57,055 bases of DNA, taken from Thermoplasmata archaeon (GTDB lineage Archaea > Thermoplasmatota > Thermoplasmata > Methanomassiliicoccales > Methanomethylophilaceae). The position numbers were made by a program, and so were the translations under genes. The notes below the pieces were generated by a model. That model was not told where the DNA came from and ran no database searches. It worked only from the letters and a program-made list of their open reading frames with translations. Where the stretch lies: assembly GCA_015063285.1 (NCBI GenBank), contig SUST01000009.1, positions 1 to 57,055 on the forward strand. The letters run 5' to 3'. Below, one piece after another: positions 21,771 through 51,718 of the stretch (positions are counted from its first letter, which is position 1; every line of letters begins with the position of its first letter).

Positions 21771-21803
21771 GAAGAGATGAAGGGCCGACCCCCTCATCTC
21801 TTC
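21771..21803 (-). terminator. Terminator overlapping the stop codon of giant gene 2
   Basis: A 10-bp perfect stem, GAAGAGATGA (21771-21780) with TCATCTCTTC (21794-21803), includes the TGA stop of the minus-strand gene. On the minus strand it is followed by AAACTATTTCCTTGATTTTT. Confidence 0.65.
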
Positions 21804-24800: not shown

Positions 24801-27800
24801 TTTCCGTTAAGATACCATCCTAGGAATTTGCTGTCCTTCTTCAACGGTGCGGACGGTGCGGTCGCGTATCCTCCGTACTCGACATACTGGGTTTCGACGC
24901 TGGTTCCTCCGTTCGAATTGAAGGTGACCGTACGGGTCTGTCCTTCCCATATCGCATACAGCGTTATGGTGATCCTGTCGGCGGGATCCAGTGCTGCATA
25001 GGACCCCTGCAGGGGGAACGAGATGGTCTGACCGGTCCATACGACATTTCCGTTCTTTTCGAACGACCATCCGAGGAGGTTGTAACCTTCACGGGATACA
25101 GACAGTGAGATGGGACCCTTGTTCAGGCCTCCGACTGCGGATGTGGTTGTGCTTCCCTCGTAGTTGGGATCAATGGTGACGTCATATGATTTGAGACTCC
25201 TGACTGGGAACAGCTTGAAGTCGCTGGTGACAGGGGTGTTGTAATCATATGGTTCATCCTCTAGGATAATGTAACCGGATGGGGTCTCGGCCAGTTTTAT
25301 CTTGAACCAACCTTCGAAACCAAGTCCTCTCTGCGCTGGAGGATCTCCAGCATCGGTTATCTTGTCACCGTTGATGATGTATGATGTGTGGATCTTCTGG
25401 AGGTTGTTACCTCCGACCAGGCCGTAGTATTCGATGGTCCAGTATGGAATCGATTCACCTATACTCCAGTCAGCAACAAGTGTAAGGTTGCTGTGGATTT
25501 CAGTTACTCCGAATACGAATGGTTGTCCATCCGTATCGCTCGCAGATTTGATCCAGCCTTCGAAGTCGTAGCTGTAGTTGAGATAAGTTCTAGTTGCATT
25601 TCCGGGGTTGTTGATCGTCTGTCCGTCCTGGACACTGATGGTTCCCTTTCCATCCTCTCTTACGGTTCCCGGGAATCCCTGAGGCAGGACTCCTCCAGTG
25701 GGGTCGAAAGTGACTGTATAGATGTTGGTCCATTTTGCCTCTGCGATCGTAGTGGTCTCGGTCAGCTCCGATCCCGTTGTGGATGCGGTGAGTTTAGTTT
25801 CGCCGACAAACCATCCTTCGAAGATCGCCATGTCCTTGCTAATTTCAGGAAGGTCTCCCAGATTCTGGTAGTCTGCGATCTCGATGGTCGCCTTAAGAGA
25901 GCCTCCGTCGTAGAACATGACTTTTTTGTTGGGTGTTATCTTGACGACGAATTTTCCCTGTACACTCATCTTGTCTCCGCTTGCATCGACGATGACACCA
26001 GCGTAGTACACCGAGTTCGCGTCTGCTCCTTCGCCGATAGTGCTGAAACTGAAACTGCTTCCGCTCTTCGGGTACTTGAACGATCCGTTCGGGTTCGTAG
26101 CATCGTAGGGGCCTTCGGTTATGATCTTGTCATCCCCGCAGTAGTGGACATCGATCTTGTACGTCTCCATCAGCTGGTTAAGGGCAGGATCGTTCTCGAT
26201 GGACGAGTAGTGCTTCGAGCCGTCGTATGTGTACGTGACGTTTCCGTCTTTGATGTAGAACGCGTACAGGTTCACTATGGTCGGGGTGTGGACACCCAAC
26301 TCGACTGTATCCTTGGGGATGTGAGTATAGACTTTCTTTCCATTGCTGTCCAGTAAGGCCCATCCAACGAATATATGGCCGTCCATGCTGCATTCGATAT
26401 CCCTGAGAGTGATGGTTCCGTTGTTCAGTTTCCCTGAATCGTACAGAAGGGTACCATCCCAGTCGAAGTAGCGTATGATGTGAGAGCTGCTTGTGGTATA
26501 GAGGGAGATGTCCTCCTTGACGGTGAGGGTGTAGACTCTCTTGCCGTCGATTATGGTACTCTCTACCTTGTTCTGTTCGTTAAAGATGGGCTCGTAGTAC
26601 CATTCCTCGTCGTTGTACATTCCGAAGGTGATCACGGAGTAGAGAGGAATGTTCTGACCGTTTCCGCTTACATCGTTGTAGTAGACCGTGAAGTCATCGA
26701 CCTTGGTTCCGTTGACGATGAAGTTGATGTCGGCAGATGCTGTCTTCGTTACTATGTTAAGATTGATGTCTTTGGTGATGAAGAACGTCCAAGCGTATCC
26801 TCTGTTGTTGGACAGCTTCGTCGGGGTTCCGATGTCGTATGCGGTCAATCCGCTCTCGCTCAACGTTCTCTCAATATCCAAATCGTACCCTGCGTCTGGT
26901 TTGATTGAGATAACAATCTCAGAATGGGCGGTCATCATGTAGACGCCGTCTTCAGCAGGTTTCGTGATGGTAGTACTCACAGATGCGTGGGCATCGGTCG
27001 AATAAGTGAACTTGTAGCTAAGATCCTCCTTCCACTTCAAGGTTATGATCAGATCGCTTGTTACAGTACTGTTGAAGTCGAATTCGACATCTCCGTTGAA
27101 GAAGCCCAAGAATTGGTACATATTGGTGTCGTAAGTGTTGATCAAGGGCTGAGTTACTTTGCCTTCAACGGTTGCGACAACCAATCTTTGGCTGTTGTTA
27201 GCTTTGAATGAACTGACAGGTGTGATGAACGTGACCTTTGCGGTATCGTCAGGATAATGCGCAGTCAGAGATATAGTGGCGCCGTCATTGCTGGCGCCAA
27301 CCCTGTAGTAGTAGTTTCCGTTCTTGTAGATCACTTCACCTTCTGCGGGATCTGCAGTCCATCCGGAAATAGGATCGTTATGGGAATTCCTCTTCATTAT
27401 CGGAAGAGGGATCTCCTGCTCGAATGCAGCCCTATCGCTGGGATTCCAATCCCATGACAGGATCTTATCTGAGTTTTCTATCTCTATGCTAACTGTGTTC
27501 CTGGTGTAGTTGAAATACAGTGTCGGGGTGGTGCTTCCTTCCCACGGGGTCGAATCGACTGCGGTGATAACGATTCTCTGGCCGACGAGTTCTGCGCTGA
27601 TTTTGGTATAAGGTTCCATTCCGCTGAACTTCATTCCTTCTACGTTTATTCCAACAGCAGCAGAGTACTTTCCATCATTCTCCACCAACGGAACTTTCAT
27701 AGGTTCTTGCTCGGAGTAGCTTCCGTCAAGCTCTTTCAGCTTGAGGACTACATTGACATCCTTGGCGGTTCCGGTGACCACCTTACCATACAATATGAGA

Positions 27801-30800
27801 GTACCGCTCTTGGCCTGGATCAAGCGAGCATCATTCATTTCGTGGAATCCGTATACTTGATTACTGAATTTCGTCTCACTTCCAGGATCACAGTCGAAAT
27901 ACCATCCTGAGATGATCTTACCAGATCCGCCTAATGCCTGATAGATGGATGCAGGCACGTTGGGCAGGAACTTAGCTCCGTAATCGACTGAGGTTGTGGC
28001 TTCTACCGGATCTGAGTAGACTTTATAGTCTGTACCGTCTTCATTCTTAAGCTTGTATTTGACTTGGTAGAGGTTCTGTGTCTCAACCACAATGAGTGCA
28101 GGCTTGTCGAATTTGGTCCAGTTCAGATAGAACGATTCAGTCTTCGTACCATAATCATTCTCCGGTGTGGGAATTTCATTCGTTGAACCTGTGTGGTAAT
28201 TATGGTCCGTATTCACTATGAACTTTGTTACTTCACCCTCGGTTTCGTACAATCCTTCGAGAACTGTGTAACTGTATCCAGCAGCGACGGTTATCTTGAC
28301 CGGTGGCAGATTTCCATCGGGGTTGTTGATGAGAAGATCCTGGGGCTGACTGAAGATAAGTGAATCTAATGCTCCTACGTACTTGGTGTAGTTCAGGATG
28401 GAGTACTTGTAGTTGCTAGTGGTCTGATGAGGCGTGCTTTCGACGGTGACCTCTTCAGTGATGATCTTTGCTGATATTATGTAGTATGTGAAATCAGCGT
28501 TGTTGTCTCTGTCGATCGATAGGTCTCCCAACAATGTGAGATACTCGTCGGAGTCTCCGTATTGGAGACAGACCTCGTACAGTCCGAGAGGTATGTAACC
28601 GGAATACAGCTTGGGTGCCGAGGGGTCGTTGCTCTTTAGGGACATCTCATAGTATTCCTGAGTGTATACTTTGTTGTGCAAGTACACTCTGGTCTTCTGG
28701 AGCTCACTGTCTTCGATAGTGTTGTTGTTGAAGATCATGTTCAGGTTCACGAACCTGCTTCCAATTTCACTTGCAGTGATGGTACAGTTTCCTGTTACCA
28801 TGACCGTGGTGAATGATGAGTAAGCATCCTCCAAGTTGCATTCTCCGGAAGCGATCCACCTGTTGAGCTCATAGTGCTCTGAAGGAGTATAGGAGAGTTC
28901 TATGATGTCTCCGTAGTGGGCGCTTATGGTAGTGCTGGTGATGCGCTCCCTGTTTCCGTTATGGTCGACCAAGAATGCATCGACGGTTCCGTTAATGGGA
29001 GATGGGATTGAGACACTGTAATTCATCTGCTCCCATACGGCCTTGTAGGTGATCTCGTAGTCGCTACCTTTTTTGTTGAGATAGTAATCGGTTGTTCCGT
29101 TATCCAATTGGACTATAATGGCCCTACCAGTCTCATCAACAGTCTCGACCTCAGTTCTCACGATTTTGAGATAGATCACGTCGTCTCCGCCCACATTGGC
29201 GTGTTCTTCAACGTAGAATATTTTCAATGTTCTTTCAACACCGGGACGTGGATCCAATGCACCGACATTGGTCGGCATCTTGGTGTTATGCCATCCTTTC
29301 AACTTGTAACCAGACAGGGATGCGTCTTTGAGGGTGTAGGTGAAGGTGAAGTAGGTCTCGTCACCTTCCATTTGTGCGACTGATTGGTCGGGATATACCA
29401 AGAATGAACTGGGAGCCTCTACTGTAGCTGATTCGTACGGGACTGAAGAAGTTTCATTCCAACTCTTCTTGTCCATCGTGACTTTGATTGCGATGTCGGA
29501 AGTGACTGCATAGATGTTGATTTCATTTACGAGCAAGCCGGTATCGGGGTTTGTCAGCATGGCCATGGTGAGAATCGTATCCTGATCGATGTTGTACCAT
29601 GTGCCCGAGGTTGTGTTGTTTCCCTGGAAAGACTCCCACTGGATGAATTTCTGACTGTAATCGGGTGATGATGTCAGAACCTCCCTGGCGTAATCCAGGA
29701 TGTTCATGTTGTTATGGTTGAAGTCAACGATATCGAAAGTGGATCCGATCCTAACACTCGCATATACCGGTTCACCGTTCACATAGTTCATGACGTAACC
29801 ATTGGTACCGAAGATGTTCGTCCATCCGCTTCCTGAGGGTTTGAAGAAGTTGATCTTGATCTCTATTCCGGACCATTTGGCATATAGGGGCATATCCTTG
29901 GTGACCCTGTCGGATTCGGTGTTCCATTTGTAGATGAAGCTGGAATCCTTGTACCATCCTCCGAATACGTATCCGGCTTTTTCCGGCTCAGGAAGGTTCG
30001 TCAGACTTGCACCGCCCTCTACATCCTGAGAGACGTATATCTTCAGGGATCTGCCGTCCATGTAGTCCAGATTGACCGTGTACATGTATCTTGCGTACAG
30101 GGTTAGGTCTTTGGTAACAGGGGTATCGTGGTTGTACGGTTTTGTGTAATTCTCGTCCGTATACCATCCCACAAATCCTTCTCCCGTGTCAGGGCATTCG
30201 ATCTTGCTCACAGTTTGTCCCTGATAGAATGTGAGGGCTGACTGGTTGGATTTGGTTCCGTACATTCCAACGAATGTGACCTTGACTTTGTTCTTTTCAG
30301 AAACGATAAGGGTGATGTTGGATGGTGATTGACCAGAGCCTGTATCCAATACGAACGAAAGGGTGATATCTTGCGGAACATCTCCGCTGTATTCCACATA
30401 ATATCTTATGGTGGCTACCGAGGATCCAGACAGAGTTCCCAGTTTGATCGCGCTCTGTGAACCGTCCTCATTGAAGTTATCGGTGAACTCTTTCGGACTG
30501 GATAGCATCCAACCAGTGGTGTTGTCCATATTGGCCATAGGGATGACCCTCACTGTGGTTCCAGCATTGATTCCGGTAACTTTGGTCAACTTGAGTTCAG
30601 ACATCGAAGGCGATTTCGGGAACAGAACATCAGAGTATCCTATGTATGAACTGGGATTTTCTTCGGTCTTCACACTGATGCTGTAATCCGTTCCGTATTC
30701 GGTCGAGGAGGTGATCACATAGAAGTCCACACGGACCTCGATGTAGTTGGCGGGAATCGTGTAGCCCTCATCGCCATAAGCAGAAACTTCTCTGAAGTTA

Positions 30801-33800
30801 AGGATCAGATAACCGAGATATGCGGCGTGATCTACGGGAGCTCCAGTCAATGTGAAGTTGAGTTTGTAGGTTCCAGGAGCGCTTGCGCATGTAAGCAATA
30901 CTGACTGATCTTCTTGACCGTTGTCCCTGTTATAGTAAGTCGACTTGACAGGGTTCTCGAATCCGGGGATTCCTTCAAAGGAATTCATCTCATTTGCGAC
31001 AGTAAGCGTTGCTCCGTTTCCTTCATGTCCGAATATCAGACCAAATTGGTTCTCATGGGGAGTCTGGCCGCCGTTCATCCCTGGCTTTACGAATTCGTAG
31101 TCATGGCCGTGTATGTCGGATCCCAATGAGTAGAATGCTCCACCGACATATTCTATGGCCGTGCCGTTGAACATCTTAACGATGTCCACTGATCCATCAA
31201 CTGTCTTGATAGCATCGCTGCCAGAGGTGGAAAGACTCATAGTGATTGCTTTCTTCTCGGTTCCTCCGATATACCAACAGCGGGTACTTTCGTTGAAGTC
31301 GGTCATGTTTGCTGCTCTGAAAGATCCATCCTTATTGACTACGAATCCTCCGGAACCAGGGCTACACATGACATATGCACCATAGCTGGATTCTCCCTGA
31401 GCCGAGAGTATTAGGTTTCCGTTGACGGCACCATAGCTGGAGGATGATTCCCTTATGTAGAATGTTGAACCGCCAGCGATGATTATCGAGTTGGAAGGAG
31501 AACCTTGGGTGGTCGGTTTGTTGTACATGTTGACGCTGTTCAGAGTCAATACCTTGTCAGCGGTAGAATCGATTTTCACTATGGTATCGTATTTCAGAGT
31601 GAGATCATCGATCATATACAGGCTAGCAACCAGTTCTTCGGTGACTGCGCTCCTTCCCTGAACTTCGATGTATGACTGAGTGATAAGTGCCTCGGTTATA
31701 CGATGGATTCCCTGTATCGGGGTGTTGGTGTTGTTCTGTAATTGGATGATTTCCAGTTTGGTGCTGAGTTTGGTGTTGCAGGCGTTTCCGCTTCCCATTA
31801 TGCTTCCGTCAATGGAGATTTTCGCTTTTCCTTCGTTTCCATAGATGAAGATGCTTCCGTGTCCTTTGACGAGGTCGGTGCCGGGGCCGAACGGATTCTC
31901 CGCATGACCCTGCTCGTCAGTCTTGACGTTAGCTCCTGCGTATATAGATGATACATTGATCGTCTTCACGCTACCTTTATACTGGTAGGGGTTGACGTAG
32001 TTCCCCTCATCGTCCTTGTAGTAGTGACCTACATAGATGTTGGTGTTTCCATAGGTCCTTCCCATGAATCCACCACCGAATACGGACCCATCTATAGTTC
32101 CTTGGTCGATGACCACGATGGTAGTGTCGTTGTCGTACACGGTTTCATCAGTATCATTGTTGAGCTTGGGTCCATCGTCACCTTTCGACGATCCTCCGTA
32201 AACAGATCCATAGATCCTGGTGGAAGATCCCGTGACGTAGACTGTCCTGTTGCCGGTGACGGAGATGATCTTTTCTACTCCGAATCCACCACCGAACACA
32301 TTTCCTTTGATCTCTCCACCGGTGACCTCGACGACTGTGTTTCCATCGACCTTTCCTATGGCCCCTCCGCCGTAAACGTCATGGCCGATGTAGCATCCAT
32401 CTTTTATCAGGACGTATGTGTTTCCAGTTACTTTCGCGTTGTCGACGTAGTGTCCGCTCGTCGTATTGTATGTGATGTTCGTATTGTTGTTCACGAACCA
32501 GGGAAGTTTATTGAATGGGTTAGCAGTCGGGTCATTGTAATCGATCAGACTGCTATTTACGACCGTGATCCTCGAGTAATCGTCGGCCCAATCGGCGGAT
32601 TTCTCTTCATCGATACCCTTTCCGCCTCCGTATACTGATCCAGCGATGTTTGCGTTGTTACCGATGCTGATCGAGATGTTTCCATCGACCTTCGCGACCT
32701 CGGGGTATTCGTCCGGAAGCGACTTTCCTTTGTAGTTTGTCAATGTGGGGACGGACATGCCTCCGCCGTAAACGTCTCCATAGATATTGATGTCCGAGTC
32801 GCCACCTATACTGATGTTGATGTTACCGAACACATAGGATTTTCCGGTCGAGTTCTTGTATCCTTTCCAGCTGGGTTCTACGAAGTTTCCGGTACTGTTG
32901 TGCCTGTCTTTGTCCAGACCACCGCTGCCTCCTCCGTAGACACTGTCGAATATGGTACCGCCTGTTATTTCGATGTTGATCGTCAGATCGTTTTTGTTCG
33001 ACTCGTTTCCGATGCTTCCTCTGTATCCGCCACCATAGAGGTTCCCTACGATTCCTCCGACCATCCTTACTGTGATGTCACCGTCCAGCATAGATTTGTA
33101 TGTGGGTAAAGCCGAGGTGTCGTAACCTGCTCCGTATACTCCGGCCGCTACTGCTCTGCCTCCGATGTATATGAGTACGTGATCGACGCAGTCGTTATCA
33201 GAGGTTGTTGCACCGTCCGTGATGATACCGCATGCTATGTGCCTGATGATCGCTTTTCCGGTCAGTTCCAGATATGCGCTGTCGGTTCTTGTGAATTCGC
33301 TGCGGCCAGATGCCTGTACATCCCATACAGAACTGTTACCGCTGACGAATACATGGGTGGATCCCTCGATGGTTGCTTTGTTTCCGGAAGTTCCTTTGGA
33401 CGATCCTCCCTCGATGATGCTAGACTGTTCGATGTAGAACTTGGTCCTCTCTCCATAGAAATCGTTGGTTTGCGTATCTTCCCAATTATCTCCAGGAGTA
33501 TAGTGGCCGACACAATAGACGAATGTTCCTCCGTTGTTCTCAGACGGGTATTCCGAATCGTTGTTCGTGTTGTAGATGTTACCATAAATATCGCCACTAC
33601 CGCCAGATCCAGAGCTGCCTCCTGCCAGAGTGTCGGTGGTGATACCTCCCTTGAGCACTATGTAGGTCGACAAGGGATTGTCTTGAGTTCCAATGGTGGC
33701 ATTGGCTCCTGAAGATCCACCGACTATGTTGTAGTAGGTACCGCTGTGGATGATGACATAGGTTCCCAGGTCTACGGTGAAATCTCTGATCTCTTCCCCT

Positions 33801-35266
33801 CCTCCGAACACGATCTTCTTGCCTACAATTGTTGCATTTGTGATCGAGCTTCCAGGAGTTCCGCCGAAGATCTGCGGCACACCGCCGTTATCATTGGGAA
33901 TGTTGGTTGTAGTGTCAGATATTATGCCGTTGTTGACTTTTTTCCATAGGTTTTCAATTCCGGTTCCTAAGATGAGCTTGTGACCGTAAGCGTATATCGC
34001 AGAACCGGTACCGTCTCCATGTGTTCCGATGTTACTGCCGGTGCTTACGATGATCACGTTATCTATGATAACATCGCCGCCGAGCCTGCAACATCCAGTT
34101 CCTGAGCCTGAGAATTGCAATACCGTTTTCTCAATTGCTCCGATAGGTGAACGGTATGTTCCTGTCGGCAGATAATTGGGATAGTTACTGTTGTTTACAC
34201 CACCCACGGTCATGTCAATCAATTTCTCTCCGTTCCTCGCCTTCTCCAGAGTTAGGAGGTAGATGGTACCGAACATGTCTGATGATGTGCGCTTATTTCC
34301 GCGGACAACGTCGGCATAGTTTACTTTCTTGTTGTTGTCGATATCGATGGCCCCAATTGTCTTGTTTCCTTGGATGTTAGTGGGGTATGCGCACGGACTG
34401 AGCACATCTACTGTGTAGCAGTCGCCATCGGCCCATCTGTTGGCGTAAACTGTGTCCGACTTCAAGACGAAAACATCAGGCTCTATCCATTTGGCGTAGA
34501 GTGTGGTTATGCTGCTGTCCACGACATCCCCGGGATAAATCATAACCCATTCGTTGTTCTGATAGGCCATCCATCCGCCGAATACCTTATCAGGGGATAG
34601 TGTACAGGTTGTGAATGTGATAGTTACGGTCGTTTCTGTGACCTGGCTGTGGAAATTATAGTAGTCATAGATGGGGTCAGTATTACTCTTTGATTCATTC
34701 TTAGTGACAGTTGTGCTGGTGGCAGTTATTCCGTTCTCCTTAATAACGAATGATTTGGGTATCTTAAATTCATAATCGATGCCACTCCCAGCACTTCCGT
34801 CGTGCGTGAACATGATGCTGACCGAATTATCTTGGATTTTTACAACATGATTAAGGGAGTTTTCATAGGAATTGAATGAGCCGTCAGAATTTAGTTTTAC
34901 GGTCCCTGTCCAGTTGTCACGGGTTCCGGATGTTGTAACAGGAGTGCTGTTTCCATCGATGAATTCGCAGACAGCTGTGTTTGAGGGGGCATTCCAGTTT
35001 CCAGATGTTATAAGGCCCGTGTTGCTCCATAACAAGGGGTTGTATTCCGTCGCTGCTATTCCGTCATATGTTACTTCAACACTGCCGTTACCAGTTGTGT
35101 TGGTCGGATCGATGTACGTGATCGTGTGTTCGCCTTGAGCAGATATTGACTCGGATACCCCTATTGCCGTCCCTACAAAAGTTATTGCGACAGCAAGAAG
35201 GAATAATGCTAACATTTTGTGCTTTGTCTTTCTCATGCCCCTTGAAAAAGTACTATTGCAATCCAT
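21794..35266 (-). CDS. Giant membrane-anchored surface protein (adhesin-like), 4490 residues
   Basis: A paralogue of the 4687-residue protein with the same order of parts. It has a signal segment (KMLALFLLAVAITFVGTAIG), then a 'YDGIAATEYNPLLWSNTG' opening shared almost word for word with the other giant, an InlB-like module ending LYAKWIEPD, and a beta-helix-like region with VYGGG, VFGGG and GGSSKGDDG turns (about 31.1-34.5 kb). Ig-like and InlB modules follow, then twelve tandem InlB-type modules (about 22.9-25.8 kb), the acidic 'EDGS..R...ET.T.RDGS' stalk (about 22.44-22.85 kb), the FKLEHFSVYTL C-terminal domain, and a transmembrane helix followed by IIRKR. It lacks the Tyr-rich repeats of its paralogue and instead has the expanded tandem InlB block. 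The promoter block is shared with the paralogue. Start chosen at the first ATG (GGGAAG about 10 bases upstream); the ATG 30 bases later is an alternative. Adhesion is inferred. Confidence 0.85.
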   Translation of the reverse strand: MDCNSTFSRGMRKTKHKMLALFLLAVAITFVGTAIGVSESISAQGEHTITYIDPTNTTGNGSVEVTYDGIAATEYNPLLWSNTGLITSGNWNAPSNTAVCEFIDGNSTPVTTSGTRDNWTGTVKLNSDGSFNSYENSLNHVVKIQDNSVSIMFTHDGSAGSGIDYEFKIPKSFVIKENGITATSTTVTKNESKSNTDPIYDYYNFHSQVTETTVTITFTTCTLSPDKVFGGWMAYQNNEWVMIYPGDVVDSSITTLYAKWIEPDVFVLKSDTVYANRWADGDCYTVDVLSPCAYPTNIQGNKTIGAIDIDNNKKVNYADVVRGNKRTSSDMFGTIYLLTLEKARNGEKLIDMTVGGVNNSNYPNYLPTGTYRSPIGAIEKTVLQFSGSGTGCCRLGGDVIIDNVIIVSTGSNIGTHGDGTGSAIYAYGHKLILGTGIENLWKKVNNGIISDTTTNIPNDNGGVPQIFGGTPGSSITNATIVGKKIVFGGGEEIRDFTVDLGTYVIIHSGTYYNIVGGSSGANATIGTQDNPLSTYIVLKGGITTDTLAGGSSGSGGSGDIYGNIYNTNNDSEYPSENNGGTFVYCVGHYTPGDNWEDTQTNDFYGERTKFYIEQSSIIEGGSSKGTSGNKATIEGSTHVFVSGNSSVWDVQASGRSEFTRTDSAYLELTGKAIIRHIACGIITDGATTSDNDCVDHVLIYIGGRAVAAGVYGAGYDTSALPTYKSMLDGDITVRMVGGIVGNLYGGGYRGSIGNESNKNDLTINIEITGGTIFDSVYGGGSGGLDKDRHNSTGNFVEPSWKGYKNSTGKSYVFGNINISIGGDSDINIYGDVYGGGMSVPTLTNYKGKSLPDEYPEVAKVDGNISISIGNNANIAGSVYGGGKGIDEEKSADWADDYSRITVVNSSLIDYNDPTANPFNKLPWFVNNNTNITYNTTSGHYVDNAKVTGNTYVLIKDGCYIGHDVYGGGAIGKVDGNTVVEVTGGEIKGNVFGGGFGVEKIISVTGNRTVYVTGSSTRIYGSVYGGSSKGDDGPKLNNDTDETVYDNDTTIVVIDQGTIDGSVFGGGFMGRTYGNTNIYVGHYYKDDEGNYVNPYQYKGSVKTINVSSIYAGANVKTDEQGHAENPFGPGTDLVKGHGSIFIYGNEGKAKISIDGSIMGSGNACNTKLSTKLEIIQLQNNTNTPIQGIHRITEALITQSYIEVQGRSAVTEELVASLYMIDDLTLKYDTIVKIDSTADKVLTLNSVNMYNKPTTQGSPSNSIIIAGGSTFYIRESSSSYGAVNGNLILSAQGESSYGAYVMCSPGSGGFVVNKDGSFRAANMTDFNESTRCWYIGGTEKKAITMSLSTSGSDAIKTVDGSVDIVKMFNGTAIEYVGGAFYSLGSDIHGHDYEFVKPGMNGGQTPHENQFGLIFGHEGNGATLTVANEMNSFEGIPGFENPVKSTYYNRDNGQEDQSVLLTCASAPGTYKLNFTLTGAPVDHAAYLGYLILNFREVSAYGDEGYTIPANYIEVRVDFYVITSSTEYGTDYSISVKTEENPSSYIGYSDVLFPKSPSMSELKLTKVTGINAGTTVRVIPMANMDNTTGWMLSSPKEFTDNFNEDGSQSAIKLGTLSGSSVATIRYYVEYSGDVPQDITLSFVLDTGSGQSPSNITLIVSEKNKVKVTFVGMYGTKSNQSALTFYQGQTVSKIECPDTGEGFVGWYTDENYTKPYNHDTPVTKDLTLYARYMYTVNLDYMDGRSLKIYVSQDVEGGASLTNLPEPEKAGYVFGGWYKDSSFIYKWNTESDRVTKDMPLYAKWSGIEIKINFFKPSGSGWTNIFGTNGYVMNYVNGEPVYASVRIGSTFDIVDFNHNNMNILDYAREVLTSSPDYSQKFIQWESFQGNNTTSGTWYNIDQDTILTMAMLTNPDTGLLVNEINIYAVTSDIAIKVTMDKKSWNETSSVPYESATVEAPSSFLVYPDQSVAQMEGDETYFTFTYTLKDASLSGYKLKGWHNTKMPTNVGALDPRPGVERTLKIFYVEEHANVGGDDVIYLKIVRTEVETVDETGRAIIVQLDNGTTDYYLNKKGSDYEITYKAVWEQMNYSVSIPSPINGTVDAFLVDHNGNRERITSTTISAHYGDIIELSYTPSEHYELNRWIASGECNLEDAYSSFTTVMVTGNCTITASEIGSRFVNLNMIFNNNTIEDSELQKTRVYLHNKVYTQEYYEMSLKSNDPSAPKLYSGYIPLGLYEVCLQYGDSDEYLTLLGDLSIDRDNNADFTYYIISAKIITEEVTVESTPHQTTSNYKYSILNYTKYVGALDSLIFSQPQDLLINNPDGNLPPVKITVAAGYSYTVLEGLYETEGEVTKFIVNTDHNYHTGSTNEIPTPENDYGTKTESFYLNWTKFDKPALIVVETQNLYQVKYKLKNEDGTDYKVYSDPVEATTSVDYGAKFLPNVPASIYQALGGSGKIISGWYFDCDPGSETKFSNQVYGFHEMNDARLIQAKSGTLILYGKVVTGTAKDVNVVLKLKELDGSYSEQEPMKVPLVENDGKYSAAVGINVEGMKFSGMEPYTKISAELVGQRIVITAVDSTPWEGSTTPTLYFNYTRNTVSIEIENSDKILSWDWNPSDRAAFEQEIPLPIMKRNSHNDPISGWTADPAEGEVIYKNGNYYYRVGASNDGATISLTAHYPDDTAKVTFITPVSSFKANNSQRLVVATVEGKVTQPLINTYDTNMYQFLGFFNGDVEFDFNSTVTSDLIITLKWKEDLSYKFTYSTDAHASVSTTITKPAEDGVYMMTAHSEIVISIKPDAGYDLDIERTLSESGLTAYDIGTPTKLSNNRGYAWTFFITKDINLNIVTKTASADINFIVNGTKVDDFTVYYNDVSGNGQNIPLYSVITFGMYNDEEWYYEPIFNEQNKVESTIIDGKRVYTLTVKEDISLYTTSSSHIIRYFDWDGTLLYDSGKLNNGTITLRDIECSMDGHIFVGWALLDSNGKKVYTHIPKDTVELGVHTPTIVNLYAFYIKDGNVTYTYDGSKHYSSIENDPALNQLMETYKIDVHYCGDDKIITEGPYDATNPNGSFKYPKSGSSFSFSTIGEGADANSVYYAGVIVDASGDKMSVQGKFVVKITPNKKVMFYDGGSLKATIEIADYQNLGDLPEISKDMAIFEGWFVGETKLTASTTGSELTETTTIAEAKWTNIYTVTFDPTGGVLPQGFPGTVREDGKGTISVQDGQTINNPGNATRTYLNYSYDFEGWIKSASDTDGQPFVFGVTEIHSNLTLVADWSIGESIPYWTIEYYGLVGGNNLQKIHTSYIINGDKITDAGDPPAQRGLGFEGWFKIKLAETPSGYIILEDEPYDYNTPVTSDFKLFPVRSLKSYDVTIDPNYEGSTTTSAVGGLNKGPISLSVSREGYNLLGWSFEKNGNVVWTGQTISFPLQGSYAALDPADRITITLYAIWEGQTRTVTFNSNGGTSVETQYVEYGGYATAPSAPLKKDSKFLGWYLNGNVFNFDTPITTNIVLTAQWSDTYTVTLDLDGGSIAYDRTFKVASGTSLNSVIGEPNKTNTQFKIYDFAGWQRLTDDGYVDYDPSQPITSDISLKAKWTVTTIAWSVGYYAAYGGESPQLRSVAVVNVDAQNKKVSAPADPPGQRGLKFTGWYEFRFISESPGYEVIDRNTPFDFANTDIERDYLLVAGWMPISYTVTLDPNYEGAQSTTRDLGRVYGANIPMILSRDGFAFQGWSATPDGEILYKHAVHFPLDYDIGTMDESGDRLTFTLYAQWGTDYKVTFNYNNGTPIQTQTVAVGGKVIQPEDPTWEGNRFLYWYDKEGNDAPFDFDTVINSSVDLVAKWQKQCTVTFMSNDTVYYSAIVDSGKKISAPAEPINDTYNFKYWHLQGEDTPFDFRNTVIEEDMVFIAEWEKKPVHIVRFYAQPEGVPELKATIEVIDGQLVEQPADPPVPERMQFIGWYEFTTGQTRSVSVVITDKFYFNQPVTRDYDLVAAWDIEVYTIVFHANDGTDRIVTEMHEPVFGAPIILPSQGIIREGMSFVGWSNTADSGVDYPGNIMNRPIPKIESKTLDLYAVWTSDIVVTFDSNGGSAVEQKVIQAGTKVEKPEDPTWEGYTFKGWYLGDRLFNFDTTITENITLVAKWISGDDPIPAPQNPKDIKKETEIIEHEDGSTTRIDKETITERDGSKTEIIKEKTTYEDGSSFERDETTYTDRYGNVTTETKETVTTKDGRGNNVEESVRTVTDGETSKTEERLVVTDDAGRIVEENVKIINTDAEGHQVSFVIVNDGDKAEAYLPDTSFDVLREAETILDEMKSMDVDLVFSSADGVIIIPSDYLKEATIRSYTISLDNNEKRVTLDEATVKNLSSKGGDAILSIKKLNPEDLTERQRAIIHDNYAMALTITINGDNISALGGNATVSVLCDKPYDHLYYVSDNGAIEEIECSYDAATGIMTFKLEHFSVYTLTVGPLAFSEEEDLMMFVAIAAAALVVVIIAGALIIRKR
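22870..25441 (-). repeat. Higher-order repeat: four InlB module types in a ~940-bp unit, three copies
   Basis: Module A starts WTIEYYG / WSVGYYA / HIVRFYA, with first codons ending at 25441, 24493 and 23554: periods of 948 and 939 bp. Each A is followed by module B (DPNYEG-type in copies 1 and 2, FHANDG in copy 3), module C (FNSNGG / FNYNNG / FDSNGG) and, in copies 1 and 2, module D (LDLDGG / FMSNDT). The last copy ends at the acidic stalk without a D module. Confidence 0.7.
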
Positions 35267-36732: not shown

Positions 36733-36860
36733 TCTCCATGTGCCAGCTATTCTAAAAAATGACCAGCAGCAAAAACGAGCGGCAATCTCCCCGAGGATGA
36801 GTGCAAGGACTGAAAAAGTGCGACATTCATTCTCAATCGCTAAAAGGAGGCGAATGCCGC

Positions 36861-37886
36861 ATGAGATACATTGGTCTAGATGTACATAAGGATAATATCA
36901 CGGCTTGCGTGCTCACGAGCACTGGCAAGCCGAAGTTCGAGAAGAATTTCGTGAAGGAATCAGAATCCTGGAATCTTTCCGAGCTGATGGAATACGGCGA
37001 TAAGGAAGGATTCTGCGTCATGATGGAATCAGGGACGTACGCATATCAGCCGTTCAGGTTCTTTTCAGACAATGGTGTGGAGACCCATGTCGTCCACGCC
37101 CAAGCGCTGAAACTCATCACGCAATCCGATAAGAAGACGGACAAGAAAGATGCGTATACGATCGCCAGGATGCTAAGGCTGTGGAAGAGAGGTGAGATAG
37201 ACCTTCAAATGGCATTCATACCGACCAGAGAGCAATGCGAGCTGAAGGACATATGCAGGTACCGCGAGGAGATCTCCAGGAAGATCAGCGATGAGACCAG
37301 GAGGATCAAATCGCATATGTCCAGAAACTGCGAGCATCTTCCGGAAGCATTCGATAACTTCCAGGCACAGAGGGCAAGGAACTATGTCAGGTTCAACTTC
37401 TCATCCGATATCACGTTGATGAACCGTATGGCCGGGTTGGAAAGGCTGTTCGCTGAGAGGGATTCCATCCAGAAGGAGGTGGAATCCAGGCTTCCGGATT
37501 CCAGGGATGTGGAGATCCTGATAACCATTCCTGGAATCGCCAGGCAGACGGCAGTCCAGATCATGTCTATGATCGTTGATATAGACAGATTCGACGATTC
37601 TGAGAAACTATGCGCATACTTCGGTCTCGTCCCGAGGGTTAGGGATTCCGGGGGCAAGGAGCATCACGGTCGCATGACCAAGAACGGGGACAGGATGATG
37701 AGGGCGTTAATGGAACGTGTGACGGAATCTCACGTCCGTAACTGTGACTCATCGGTCACCAAGTATTACAAACGCAAGTGCTCGGAGATGGGCACGAAGA
37801 AGGCGCTCATAACGGCATCCAGGAAGATGCTGTCGGTCATATTCGCGATGCTGAAGTCCGGCTCGGACTTCAGGCTCGCAGCTTGA
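36861..37886 (+). CDS. IS110-family DEDD transposase
   Basis: A 341-residue recombinase that looks intact. The N-terminal RuvC-like DEDD domain has YIGLDVHKDNITACVL (first Asp), VMMESGTYAYQPF (Glu) and SDKKTDKKDAYTIARMLR (Asp residues). A coiled-coil segment (EEISRKISDETRRIKSHMSR) joins it to the C-terminal Transposase_20 domain: TIPGIARQTAVQIMSMI, FDDSEKLCAYFGLVPRVRDS, then GGKEHHGRMTKNGDRMMR with the conserved serine region. The ATG at 36861 has AGGAGG upstream; the earlier ATG at 36801 is out of keeping with the family N-terminus. IS110 enzymes act with a bridge RNA encoded in a non-coding end of the element; here the long end is 3' of the gene. Confidence 0.9.
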   Translation: MRYIGLDVHKDNITACVLTSTGKPKFEKNFVKESESWNLSELMEYGDKEGFCVMMESGTYAYQPFRFFSDNGVETHVVHAQALKLITQSDKKTDKKDAYTIARMLRLWKRGEIDLQMAFIPTREQCELKDICRYREEISRKISDETRRIKSHMSRNCEHLPEAFDNFQAQRARNYVRFNFSSDITLMNRMAGLERLFAERDSIQKEVESRLPDSRDVEILITIPGIARQTAVQIMSMIVDIDRFDDSEKLCAYFGLVPRVRDSGGKEHHGRMTKNGDRMMRALMERVTESHVRNCDSSVTKYYKRKCSEMGTKKALITASRKMLSVIFAMLKSGSDFRLAA

Positions 37887-38217: not shown

Positions 38218-38379
38218 TCACTCGATAGCTCCAGAGGGGCATGCGTCGATACATGCGCCGCATTCGGTGCAGACATCGGGGTTGATGACTGCGACGTCTC
38301 CGACTGTGATGGCGGACGAGGGGCACTCGTCTGCGCATACTCCGCATGCTACGCACTCTGCTTCGTTGATCTTGGGCAT
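38218..38379 (-). CDS. 2[4Fe-4S] ferredoxin
   Basis: A 53-residue electron carrier with two complete cluster motifs: CVACGVCADECPSSAI and CTECGACIDACPSGAI (C-x2-C-x2-C-x3-CP twice). No insertions or extra domains. GAGGT (38388-38392 on the complement) precedes the ATG, and a TATA-like ATTTATAAT lies near 38412-38420. It probably supplies low-potential electrons to hydrogenase, heterodisulfide reductase or similar enzymes of methanogenesis; the partner is not in the window. It is encoded downstream of, and on the same strand as, the amber-containing ORF, but has its own promoter. Confidence 0.92.
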   Translation of the reverse strand: MPKINEAECVACGVCADECPSSAITVGDVAVINPDVCTECGACIDACPSGAIE

Positions 38380-38462: not shown

Positions 38463-38768
38463 TCACTCTTCTCCGTTTCCGCCGAAACCATGGCGCAGGA
38501 GCTCGTTGTATCTTGCATTGGCCTCCTCGCTTTTCTTCTTCTGCCGCCAAGAATCGATCTCGCTGCGTATCGCCAGCATCTCATCCACGATGGTCTCGGG
38601 ATCCTTCGGTCTCGCATTCCTCAGATAGGCCGTCATGCGGCGTATGGCCTTGGGTGCACCAAGACCTTTTGCGATCTCCAGACCGAATTCCTACGGGAAA
38701 CCGAGACCTGTGATGGTTTCGACTAGTTCGTCCTTCGCTTCATTCCATTCAGAATGGGTGTCTTCCAT
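38463..38768 (-). CDS. Conserved small protein with in-frame TAG (candidate pyrrolysine codon)
   Basis: Reading through one TAG (38691-38693, residue 26) gives a 101-residue protein. MEDTHSEWNEAKDELVETIT leads to GLGFP-[TAG]-EFGLEIAKGLG, then APKAIRRMTAYLRNARPKDP, ETIVDEMLAIRSEIDSWRQK and a closing ARYNELLRHGF. The reading frame is uninterrupted on both sides and ends in TGA. From memory, small Clostridia proteins of unknown function share the 'GFP.EFG...A..L....AM.RM..YLRNA.P...E.I.DEMLAI...RD.W..KK....N..YNE.L' pattern, with an ordinary residue where the TAG falls. Either the codon is decoded as pyrrolysine, as is known in Methanomassiliicoccales for methylamine methyltransferases, or it is a nonsense mutation. 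No strong ribosome-binding site; AT-rich AATAATTATTG lies 30-40 bp upstream. Confidence 0.6.
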
Positions 38769-39173: not shown

Positions 39174-39431
39174 TCATTCCTTCTCTTCGGCGGCAAGAGC
39201 TTCCTTTGCCTTTCCGAGAGCCCTGGCGATCCAGATCGTCATGATGACTGCGAGGATCGTCACGATGATGGCGTAGATCAGCATTCCGACGAGGTCGTCC
39301 TCTGTGTCGAAAACAGCGGCGACGGCCGCCTTGATGGTCTCGTTCCATGCAAGTGCGGCGACAAGTCCGAAAGCTGCCGTGATCAGGGCGGCGAATGTTT
39401 CGAGCAGTTGAACTTTGAATTGTCCAGCCAT
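39174..39431 (-). CDS. DUF5654-family small membrane protein
   Basis: 85 residues. An amphipathic start (KVQLLETFAALITAAFGLVA, continuing ALAWNETIK) matches the DUF5654 family, followed by a second hydrophobic helix (MLIYAIIVTILAVIMTIWIA) and a charged tail ending EEKE. Two membrane helices are predicted. The family is widespread in archaea and has no known function. A TTATATGC box about 22 bp upstream of the ATG predicts a leaderless mRNA. The gene is divergent from the TetR gene. Confidence 0.8.
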   Translation of the reverse strand: MAGQFKVQLLETFAALITAAFGLVAALAWNETIKAAVAAVFDTEDDLVGMLIYAIIVTILAVIMTIWIARALGKAKEALAAEEKE

Positions 39432-46615: not shown

Positions 46616-49600
46616 ATGAATATGAAAGGAAAGAAGATGCTTGCGGTGTTGGCGGCATTAGCCATGGCGTTCGCAGTATTCGTTTTAATTACGGATGTTG
46701 ATGAAAACGATGCGGGAAACATCGTAGATTTAGATAGTCAGGCCGTTGATATTCCAGACACAAGTGGTTATGCTTATACTGTTTCAACAAAAACTCTAGC
46801 CATTTCGAATTACAGTTCAATAACGGATACATTTAAGGGAACGGGCATCACAATTACTGGTGAAGTAACAGAGGACCAAATAGGGGCCCTTGGGTTCGGT
46901 GCTATGAAGGAGGATTCAAGCACTCTGTATTATACTACACTTGACTTGGCCGTAATTGCAATCAACAGTGCACTTATTCAGGATGTTACTATCAAAGTAC
47001 TTGCGGATCATACTGGAATTTATAATGCATTGTTGCAGACAGGATCTTCGAGTAGTTATTCATCGAGTGAATACAGTGTGACTATTGATCTCAATAATAA
47101 GACATATATTACCACGCCAACTGGAGCTGTTGGAACTGGTGGACTTGACGATAAGATAATGTATTTTTGGTTTGGAGCTAATGAACTTACTATTAAAGAT
47201 GGTATAATTCGTGCTAACCCTAGTAATACCGAAGGTTCAGTTTTGATGAAGAGTTTCATGCCTACGCTTAATCTTTCCAATATTATTTTAGACGCATCCA
47301 GTGTAAATTCTACATCCAATCCACAGTTCTTAACAGACCTGGATGGTGTAAAGAAAGGAACAGCATTGTACATAGGGAATGGTACTGTAAACCTTACTGG
47401 CGGAACTCGCATAATTGGATCGGATAATGTTTCTGCAGTTACAGTTTACGGACATGGGCAATCAACATCGCCTGGGGTTTGGACATCATATGTTGGATCA
47501 ACTGTGATAATGGATAAGGCTACTATTGATGGAAATGTCATCGTTGCTACTCAGAAGGTAACGGCAGCACCAAAAGTTGTCCCTGCGACGTTGACAATAA
47601 CTAAAGCAGACATGGTCGGTGACATCATCGTTGTTCCCGATGATGTAGTAATTAATGCTAATGGAAAGACGTCTGCAGCGGACGGAACAAAGACTGTTAC
47701 AATTACAGATTTGACAATCCCTACAGGAGGAGCCATGTCTGTGAAGAATGGACAGACCCTTACAATAAGTGGTTCCTTGACAAACTTTGGAACTCTTGAG
47801 AACAATGGTACTATCATAAACAACGGAACAATAGTTCTCAATAGTAACAATGGCTTCGTATCAAACACTGGTTCGTATCCTGAGTTTACAAATGCGTATA
47901 GGGGTTTGAATGGAAATGTTGAGCTAAACGTTTCGATAGGAGTTACAGCTATAGTGTTCCCTACTGGTGATCTCAATATCATTAGTCAATCTTCTTCAGC
48001 CGGGTTGTTCGCTTATATGTCTGAGACTAAGGATGGAACCAAGCATTCTCTGAACGTAACAGAATCCACGTTCACAGGTTCTCTTTGGGTCGCTGAGGCG
48101 AATAATGTTTCGGTTACCGGATCCACGTTCGGTTCATCTGATGCAAAACTAGTAGAGATGATGGATGTCGGTATCAATAACGGCATTTATGAAAATGATT
48201 CTACTGATGCCAGGGCTGGTGCACTATGGATTGTGGATTGTACCGGGGACATTATTATCGGTACTTCAGAGAGTGGCGGAGGAAATAAGATCTATGCTAG
48301 TACAGCAGGAGATAATTCAAGTAGTGCCCGTGATGGACAGTCTCATGGAATCCGTTGTGTAGCCATTTCTGCAAAGGGTGATGAACGCGTATCTAGCATT
48401 AGTATCGTTAATAACGAATTCCATGGTGGAATGAATGCAATACAATCTAACCATTGTTATGGAACAGGTACGACATTAACGATAACGGGTAATACATTTG
48501 ATTGTTGGGGCATGACCGATACTGCTACCACACAGGGAGGTTATGCCATGAGGTTGCATTTCAACGCGGCTCTTGGGAATGTTGTTGTAAATGACAATAC
48601 TTTCATCAAGGCATTTGACAGTACGAAGTTGTATGAGGTGGGTAACCTTTTGAAGGCTAGTTTTGCTTCTGGAAGTGTGTCGGGTAATGCTATATCATTT
48701 GCTAATAATATTTATAAAGCCAGTGTCTCAGCGACATCTGAGGTTATAACTACCAGTACTTCTCTGGATGCGGTGGATGGTAAGTACACGTTTGTTAATT
48801 ACGGTACCTATATTGCAGGATCGGATCTGGAAAAAACTGGAGCATACTATGGTAGTTTCATTGTTCCCACAGAACAGACAGCAACTGTAGGGAATGGTAC
48901 GACAATGACCTTTTATGATCAGGTGACTGTAGAAGGAACACTTGTTGTAAGTGGCGTGCTCAATCTGGTAGGAACACTTACGAACTCTGGTATTATTAGC
49001 GGAGAAGGGATGTTTACTAATTCTGGGGTGTTGATTAATGAGGCTGGTGTATTGGATACAATAACATGTGTACCATCTGGAGGTAGTTATAAGCTTATCA
49101 TTCCGGCAAAGACTGATGCTGTATACAAGGGGACCAAGACCCTCGCATTCAAATCGATTCCCACCGGAATTGGAAATGAGACCGTTACCTTGACATATAC
49201 CACCTATGCCGCTGATGCTGGTAAGGTCCAGACATACACCTACGAAGCAACTCCTTCGGCCTCAGGAGAGTTTACTGTTGAAGCATCGGATTCTTCAGCA
49301 ACCAGGACATTTACGATAGCTTCTGCAGGCGATCTCACAATAGGAAAGGCTTTGCTCAATGATGTCACGTTGGCTTTAACATCAGATTCCGGACAGTATA
49401 CAGGAGTTGCACAGAATCCAGGATTCACCGTAAAGATCGGTGATCAGGATGTGTCTGCTGATTTCAACGCCGCATCTTGGCCAGATGATATGATTAATGC
49501 TGGATCAAAGACATTAACTCTTACATCTAAGAATGAGAATATAGAGTCTGGAAACAAGACTGCAACTTACACCATCACACAGGCGGAGAATGGAATCACA

Positions 49601-51718
49601 GCAGTCACCATAGCTGGATGGACATATGGGGCAAATCCCAGCGTGCCTACTACTACAGCCGTTTTTGGAGGAACTACTGCTACCTACCTGTACAAGTTGA
49701 CATCTGCCGGCGAAGGGGCATATTCGTCTACGGTACCTACGGATGCCGGAGCATATGACATTAAGGCCACCATTGCAGAGACTAGTAACTACAAAGGAGC
49801 AACAGGAACCGCGACTTTCACTATTGCACCTCTGAGTATTACTGGAGCAACAGTAACCTTGGGCGATCCTCTAACCTACAATGGCAGTGCTCAGACTCAG
49901 GCAGTCACTAAGATCACGGTGTCCACTGTAGATTACAACATCGGAACCGGACTGGCCGTTTCCGACAATGTCCAGACCAATGTCAAGACAGATGGGGACT
50001 ACACTCTCACCGTTACCGGTTCAGGCAACTTCACCGGATCTGCAACCAAGACATGGAACATCTCTCCTCTGAGTGTTTCAACACTTGATGTAACAATCAA
50101 GAACGGTGATGCTACCATAACTCGTGGTGAGCGCATTGCTTATGATGAAAAAGGATACACATTGACCTATGCTGTAGACGGATATGCGAGCCCTGCCACC
50201 ATTGCTTCGAAGTGGCAGATAAAGAACGGCGAGACCTGGACCGATACAGACACAATCAAGAATTCCGGAGAGTATCAGCTTGTCCTTACAGGATCCACGA
50301 ACTTCACCGGAACCCAAGCATTCGCAGGACCCGTCATTGCAGAGGCTAAGGAGGTCGAGCATGTGGATGAGACCACACACAAGACCACTGAGGATGCGAC
50401 TGTGACGGCAGATACAGATTCCGTCTCGATATCCAACGATTCGGAGTTCACTGTCGGTGATGACAAGAAGGTGGAGATTAACCTTCAGACGACCTTCGAG
50501 TCTGGAAGCGACGGAAAGGCTAAGATCGAATTCCCCGAGGGAACTGTGTTTAACGAGGGCAATGAGAGCTCTGTTATCTCGTTGGTCAATATCACGCCGG
50601 CCGGTCCTGAGGCCGCACCCACCTTCGAAATTGTCTTCGAGAACGTGACCGTTACAACTGTCACGATCACGCTGCCAATTGGTACTGGTCTAACGAACCC
50701 TGCGGTGTACTATGTACCCGGAGGTTCAGCTGAGAAGGTTCTGATGGGAGGTACATACGATGCTGTTGCAGGTACGATTACCTTTACCACTACCCACAAC
50801 TCCACTTATGAAGTTCAGCAGAGTGAGACGCCAGTGACGCACAATGTTAACATCACAGCAGGTTCTGGTGGAACCGTGTCACAGACGACTGTTACCGGTG
50901 TTGCTGATAACGCGTCCATCTCCGCCAGCGGAAGTACGTTGACCATCGGAACCACCACGGTTACCGCCACCGCCAGCTCCGGATACACCTTCTCCAGCTG
51001 GTCCGGAATACCGGCGAGCGGAAAGGTCACCGAGAATCTGAACATCAAGGCGAACTTCACATCGAGCCCGGGCCCCACACCACCCGGACCCGGCCCCGGA
51101 CCGTCCCCGACCATCACCTACACCCTGACTTTCGAAGCAGGCACAGGCGGATCCGTATCACCTGCGACCGTTAAGGCGGCCATCAACGCCAACATCTCGG
51201 TCAACGGCGATACCATGATCATCGGAACCGGAACCAGCGCGAAGACAGTGAAGGCCATCCCCAACGACGGTTACACCGTAGGAACCTGGTCCGTTACCAG
51301 CGGAAAGGTCACCTCGGACATGACCATCAGCGTGACTTTCAAGAAGGTGTCCCTCACAGAGATATCTGTGAAGAACGCCCCCACCAAGGTCTCGTACAAG
51401 GAGGGAGAGAAGTTCGATCCCGCCGGACTGTCGATCATGCTGAAGTACGACGACATGACCTTCAAGGTCCTGCCGTACAAGGGCAACGAGTCGCAGTTCT
51501 CCTTCAGTCCGTCGCTCGCGACGCCTCTGAAGACCTCGGACAAGACCGTGACCATCACCTTCGAGGGTAAGAGCACCACGCAGGCCATTGTCGTCAGTGG
51601 AGATTCGCCTTCAGGCGGCAATGATAACACCGTGCTGTATGTTGTGATCGCGGCCATTGTGGTCATATTCGCGGCCGGAGCGGTGTTCTACTTCGTGAAG
51701 AAGAAACCCGCAGAGTAA
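46616..51718 (+). CDS. Membrane-anchored surface protein 3 (adhesin-like), 1700 residues
   Basis: Signal segment KMLAVLAALAMAFAVFVLIT (about 8-27), then a long beta-solenoid-like part with short strand repeats and 'NNGTIINNGTIVLNSNNGF' turns (to about residue 830). MBG/YDG-like modules follow (TYTITQAENGITAV..., YKGATGTATFTIAPLSITGA, NFTGSATKTWNISPLS), then an acidic linker (EVEHVDETTHKTTEDATVTA), two InlB-divergent 'GSGGTVS..TV' / 'GTGGSVSPATV' modules around a Pro/Gly linker (PGPTPPGPGPGPSP), an Ig-like domain (LTEISVKNAPTKVSYKEGEK), then helix NTVLYVVIAAIVVIFAAGAV and a KKKPAE tail. GAGTTGAT precedes ATG 46616; an ATG two codons later is an alternative. Codon use shifts from AT-rich in the N-terminal two thirds to GC-rich at the C-terminus. 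Structurally unrelated in its N-terminal half to the two giants. Adhesion is inferred. Confidence 0.85.
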   Translation: MNMKGKKMLAVLAALAMAFAVFVLITDVDENDAGNIVDLDSQAVDIPDTSGYAYTVSTKTLAISNYSSITDTFKGTGITITGEVTEDQIGALGFGAMKEDSSTLYYTTLDLAVIAINSALIQDVTIKVLADHTGIYNALLQTGSSSSYSSSEYSVTIDLNNKTYITTPTGAVGTGGLDDKIMYFWFGANELTIKDGIIRANPSNTEGSVLMKSFMPTLNLSNIILDASSVNSTSNPQFLTDLDGVKKGTALYIGNGTVNLTGGTRIIGSDNVSAVTVYGHGQSTSPGVWTSYVGSTVIMDKATIDGNVIVATQKVTAAPKVVPATLTITKADMVGDIIVVPDDVVINANGKTSAADGTKTVTITDLTIPTGGAMSVKNGQTLTISGSLTNFGTLENNGTIINNGTIVLNSNNGFVSNTGSYPEFTNAYRGLNGNVELNVSIGVTAIVFPTGDLNIISQSSSAGLFAYMSETKDGTKHSLNVTESTFTGSLWVAEANNVSVTGSTFGSSDAKLVEMMDVGINNGIYENDSTDARAGALWIVDCTGDIIIGTSESGGGNKIYASTAGDNSSSARDGQSHGIRCVAISAKGDERVSSISIVNNEFHGGMNAIQSNHCYGTGTTLTITGNTFDCWGMTDTATTQGGYAMRLHFNAALGNVVVNDNTFIKAFDSTKLYEVGNLLKASFASGSVSGNAISFANNIYKASVSATSEVITTSTSLDAVDGKYTFVNYGTYIAGSDLEKTGAYYGSFIVPTEQTATVGNGTTMTFYDQVTVEGTLVVSGVLNLVGTLTNSGIISGEGMFTNSGVLINEAGVLDTITCVPSGGSYKLIIPAKTDAVYKGTKTLAFKSIPTGIGNETVTLTYTTYAADAGKVQTYTYEATPSASGEFTVEASDSSATRTFTIASAGDLTIGKALLNDVTLALTSDSGQYTGVAQNPGFTVKIGDQDVSADFNAASWPDDMINAGSKTLTLTSKNENIESGNKTATYTITQAENGITAVTIAGWTYGANPSVPTTTAVFGGTTATYLYKLTSAGEGAYSSTVPTDAGAYDIKATIAETSNYKGATGTATFTIAPLSITGATVTLGDPLTYNGSAQTQAVTKITVSTVDYNIGTGLAVSDNVQTNVKTDGDYTLTVTGSGNFTGSATKTWNISPLSVSTLDVTIKNGDATITRGERIAYDEKGYTLTYAVDGYASPATIASKWQIKNGETWTDTDTIKNSGEYQLVLTGSTNFTGTQAFAGPVIAEAKEVEHVDETTHKTTEDATVTADTDSVSISNDSEFTVGDDKKVEINLQTTFESGSDGKAKIEFPEGTVFNEGNESSVISLVNITPAGPEAAPTFEIVFENVTVTTVTITLPIGTGLTNPAVYYVPGGSAEKVLMGGTYDAVAGTITFTTTHNSTYEVQQSETPVTHNVNITAGSGGTVSQTTVTGVADNASISASGSTLTIGTTTVTATASSGYTFSSWSGIPASGKVTENLNIKANFTSSPGPTPPGPGPGPSPTITYTLTFEAGTGGSVSPATVKAAINANISVNGDTMIIGTGTSAKTVKAIPNDGYTVGTWSVTSGKVTSDMTISVTFKKVSLTEISVKNAPTKVSYKEGEKFDPAGLSIMLKYDDMTFKVLPYKGNESQFSFSPSLATPLKTSDKTVTITFEGKSTTQAIVVSGDSPSGGNDNTVLYVVIAAIVVIFAAGAVFYFVKKKPAE

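Follow-up and report, generated by a model that had tools for sequence, protein, structure and literature searches.

The methylamine methyltransferases MtmB, MtbB and MttB contain pyrrolysine (Pyl) as a catalytic residue, which is encoded by a conserved TAG codon. A report of 2025 is said to have extended the known cases to archaea that use TAG as a sense codon throughout the genome. Outside the methyltransferases, a Pyl codon has been gained in the gene of Methanosarcina Thg1 (tRNA-His guanylyltransferase; Heinemann et al. 2009), for which a neutral explanation has been given. In Borrel et al. 2014 (PMC4153887), the Thg1 case is cited as a neutral Pyl acquisition, and Table 7 gives 16 putative non-methyltransferase Pyl proteins of 'Candidatus Methanomethylophilus alvus', half of which have amber-free homologues. 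In the same paper, TAG accounts for 1.6% of the stops of this species, and the authors suggest that constant decoding of TAG keeps an amber mutation stable.

The gene described here (hereafter the TAG gene) lies in a stretch of 57,055 nucleotides, which as a whole is called the window. It has the same codon as MtmB, MtbB and MttB and would use the same decoding machinery, the genes of MttB and MtmB also occurring with TAG in this genome; in contrast to theirs, its TAG is private and stands at a variable site. It resembles Thg1 in that a Pyl codon would have been gained in a non-methyltransferase gene with a neutral explanation, but the two proteins are unrelated, and Thg1 has reportedly been studied by experiment, the TAG gene by sequence analysis. 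The 'Ca. M. alvus' candidates are also close: the order is the same, genes of ordinary or unknown function carry a TAG while their homologues are free of it, and TAG is a nearly unused stop. The species differs, and the present family was not seen among the entries of Table 7 that were compared. A sequence-only reading of the window had held that a small non-methyltransferase protein with Pyl would be new; since such candidates already appear in the cited table, the TAG gene adds one protein to a known phenomenon.

The gene, its locus and its family

The positions of the gene and of its neighbours are collected in Table 1. Translation reproduced exactly the minus-strand frame of the sequence-only reading, with one TAG and a TGA end: the product begins with MEDTHSEWNEAKDELVETITGLGFP, is interrupted by the TAG, resumes with EFGLEIAKGLG and ends in HGFGGNGEE before the stop. 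When the read-through product was compared with its own genome, the one match was the TAG gene itself, and therefore there is no intact second copy. A plus-strand ORF of 184 aa across the TAG gene is spurious, being antisense to the ferredoxin gene and the TAG gene and having no family match. The idea that translation begins anew at codon 45, an internal ATG, was also rejected, because conserved residues would be lost.

Table 1. Features of the TAG gene, its neighbours and other large frames in the window
Feature	Position	Strand	Remarks
Read-through frame	38463..38768	-	101 codons, single in-frame TAG, terminal TGA; member of an unnamed helical family of about 100 aa
In-frame TAG, codon 26	38691..38693	-	GAG, GAA or GGG (E/G) aligned in archaeal relatives
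Probable ATG start	38766..38768	-	Met here or at most 1-2 residues away in 6 of 7 archaeal relatives
Terminating TGA	38463..38465	-	same stop at the same place in the syntenic sister
DUF5654 small protein, upstream neighbour	39174..39431	-	homologue also adjoins the gene in the sister
Small 4Fe-4S ferredoxin, downstream neighbour	38218..38379	-	not at this place in the sister
IS110-type transposase gene	36801-37886	+	between ferredoxin and tRNA intron endonuclease; not at this place in the sister
Giant open frame	3097-17160	-	4687 codons
Giant open frame	21794-35266	-	4490 codons
Third large open frame	46616-51718	+	1700 codons

The closest relative, called the sister here, is found in RGIG4496 on one contig of 3953 bases (L003/L016), where the order of genes is transcription factor B, DUF5654 protein, TAG-gene homologue and tRNA intron endonuclease. 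In the window, transcription factor B and the DUF5654 protein are separated by genes for a TetR regulator and a membrane protein, and the ferredoxin and the transposase separate the TAG gene from the endonuclease. The endonuclease homologue of the sister (L003:1849-2922, minus strand) lies in two ORFs of 96 and 237 aa and is a single frame in the window; the split is a frameshift or an assembly error in the sister. The gene neighbourhoods of 80 homologues showed no constant partner.

Counting the source genome, the TAG gene occurs in 8 of 102 genomes of its archaeal family. The seven other archaeal copies (60-71% identity, E 5e-43 to 7e-34) align across the TAG and have no internal stop. A pattern scan of public genomes, with one taken per species, found at least 558 stretches encoding such a protein; among the best 80 of these at least 558 loci, the majority belong to rumen Lachnospiraceae, e.g., Butyrivibrio, and three are archaeal (L016, L017 and L062). 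The sequence-only reading had taken the family to be bacterial and both sides of the TAG to fit its patterns, which agrees with these matches: YLRNA.P, DEMLAI and YNELL are genuine family motifs. The Lachnospiraceae family of about 100 aa is homologous to the TAG-gene product over its whole length with 53-64% identity and differs in being bacterial and in having a sense codon at position 26. Viral contigs yielded two distant relatives and nothing else. In FastTree trees the archaeal copies cluster, exactly so with the longer alignment and together with two extra tips with the shorter one. The gene is thus shared with rumen Firmicutes and was probably acquired from these gut bacteria, the direction being the part that we infer. 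Since its archaeal distribution is patchy, it is probably an accessory gene in these archaea.

Searches of Pfam, NCBIfam, PHROG and PDB, by sequence and by fold, gave no convincing match for the product, and its structural model has four helices and no relative among solved structures. The protein can be described only as small, mostly helical and under purifying selection.

Pyrrolysine decoding in the genome

The assignment to Methanomassiliicoccales, made earlier from the letters of the window, is borne out, the genomes of the same genus being Methanomethylophilaceae. PylB, PylC and PylD pass the NCBIfam curated cut-offs and are encoded in one cluster at the start of contig C13. The first base of this contig already lies within pylS, of which the codons for the final 85 residues open the cluster, while its 5′ part is missing from the assembly. 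In searches of this draft assembly pylT was not found, and a match to it with two mismatches is not a tRNA. In the 13 same-genus loci examined, pylT is located just upstream of pylS, a position that here falls beyond the end of contig C13, and pylS is present in 27 of the 30 genomes searched in the genus comparison. A search of the genome gave no match to the N-terminal domain of PylS, which is expected because PylS is shortened in this archaeal order (PMC3941956). That is to say, of the pyl genes named for checking in the sequence-only reading, pylBCD are present and pylS is represented by its 3′ end, while pylT was not found in the assembly. The genome does not lack pyl genes, the case in which that reading would have taken the TAG for a simple nonsense mutation.

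The genes of MttB and MtmB each contain one in-frame TAG. In a 454-kb sample of genome stretches with 349 called genes, TGA is the stop of 298, TAA of 44 and TAG of 7, and MttB and MtmB are two of these seven.

Residue 26 and constraint on the frame

Among 84 homologues, all of which align without gaps in the core of the TAG-gene row apart from a single insertion seen in L034 alone, residue 26 is E in 38, A in 13, K in 11, G in 7, D in 7, R in 4, Q in 2 and V and S in 1 each. Position 26 is plainly tolerant to substitution and often holds Lys, from which Pyl derives. AlphaFold predicts helices at residues 2-21, 26-36, 39-52 and 57-92 (pLDDT 84 on average and about 97 around residue 26), so that residue 26 opens the second one. 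Conservation of the TAG itself, one of the two signs of read-through suggested earlier, was absent: each of the 84 homologues carries a sense codon at this place and none has TAG, and hence the TAG is without comparative conservation. The sister reads CCC GAG GAG TTC at the site and the TAG gene CCG TAG GAA TTC, and therefore one G-to-T change accounts for the TAG.

The other suggested sign, coding sequence conserved downstream, was observed, with homology continuous in the 84 homologues and constraint after the TAG. Of the 38 columns in which conservation reaches at least 90%, 32 lie after the TAG. The TAG gene keeps 37 of the 38; the sole deviation, S38A, is common to the sister, so that no change at these columns is private to the TAG gene. 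Comparison with the sister gives a pN/pS of 0.19 for the part after the TAG, which no other archaeal pair undercuts, and the differences at the three codon positions are 13/9/38, with synonymous divergence near saturation (pS 0.73). For the same part, the terminal branch has a length of 0.07, less than that of 50 of 85 tips. The 31 conserved codons after the TAG contain 72 nonsynonymous sites, and at 95% these exclude an unconstrained divergence of more than about 0.042 per nonsynonymous site; the absence of decay bounds only the age of any pseudogene state. A nonsense mutation had been expected to combine sense codons in relatives with decay after the TAG, and of these the former was found and the latter was not.

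Explanations for the TAG codon and further candidates

It is likely that the gene is intact, that a neutral change from Glu to TAG took place at a tolerant site, and that the TAG is read as Pyl to give the full-length protein. The small-protein gene, held in common with rumen Firmicutes and probably derived from them, would have undergone a single substitution in this lineage, from GAG (Glu, as in the syntenic sister) to TAG. Codon 26 would then be read by tRNA-Pyl, because the cell keeps the pyrrolysine system and rarely stops at TAG, and the whole protein of 101 residues would be made with Pyl at residue 26, where it is most likely neutral and without a catalytic role. The frame, the homology on both sides, the missing decay, the pyl biosynthesis genes and the avoidance of TAG are observed; from them we infer read-through, the inserted Pyl and neutrality. 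As predicted from sequence, the TAG-gene product very probably incorporates Pyl.

A very recent nonsense mutation, which would leave a new, undecayed pseudogene whose translation mostly stops at codon 26, agrees with the sense codon in all relatives and with the patchy, hence dispensable, gene, and the missing decay limits only its age, in that neutral change at the 31 conserved codons after the TAG would have to stay under about 0.042 per nonsynonymous site (95%). However, since pS against the sister is near saturation, such an undecayed interval would be a small part of the history of the lineage, and TAG is decoded in this genome and avoided at gene ends, so that this explanation is unlikely. 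An error of sequencing or assembly from G to T is considerably less probable still: the codon differs from GAG by one base, and the genome is a single draft of 33 contigs, but assembled contigs seldom contain substitution errors, and the genes of MttB and MtmB have the in-frame TAG expected of them.

The least probable of the explanations weighed is a conditional switch, in which completion of the protein would require abundant charged tRNA-Pyl and would be controlled by the supply of Pyl or methylamine, possibly with the help of RNA structure; if this were true, the small protein would be coupled to methylamine metabolism. The RNA after the TAG (38593-38693, minus strand) folds somewhat better than its shuffles (z -2.13), whereas four TAG-free relatives range from -0.18 to +0.96 and thereby give no support to a conserved RNA signal, which was rejected. 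The value is a single weak score out of many tests, the TAG occurs in no genome but this one, and its very low use as a stop suggests constant decoding; moreover, such signals are described as not required in PMC4153887.

Neutral gain of a Pyl codon in an intact gene would support the view that TAG in these gut methanogens is a Pyl sense codon that can drift into tolerant sites of ordinary genes. Annotation is affected as well: under the standard code, a fragment of 25 residues is called or the TAG gene is missed altogether. Together with its syntenic GAG relative, the TAG gene offers a small and clean test protein for neutral Pyl gain.

In a read-through scan from which tandem genes were filtered out, the sequence continued in a coding-like manner after 4 of 933 TAG, 1 of 2173 TGA and 0 of 736 TAA codons, and two of the four TAG cases are the methyltransferases. 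The TAG gene itself falls below the filter because its part before the TAG is short. A NADAR-domain gene on contig C2 (L096:1680-2135, plus strand) has an in-frame TAG at 1893-1895 that is spanned by the Pfam match (E 2e-20), and its product is, judging from this match, a second non-methyltransferase Pyl candidate in the genome. On contig C3, where the gene with the TAG at 96166 (plus strand) has no family match, that codon and the TAG at 91285 (minus strand) are both flanked on either side by coding-like sequence.
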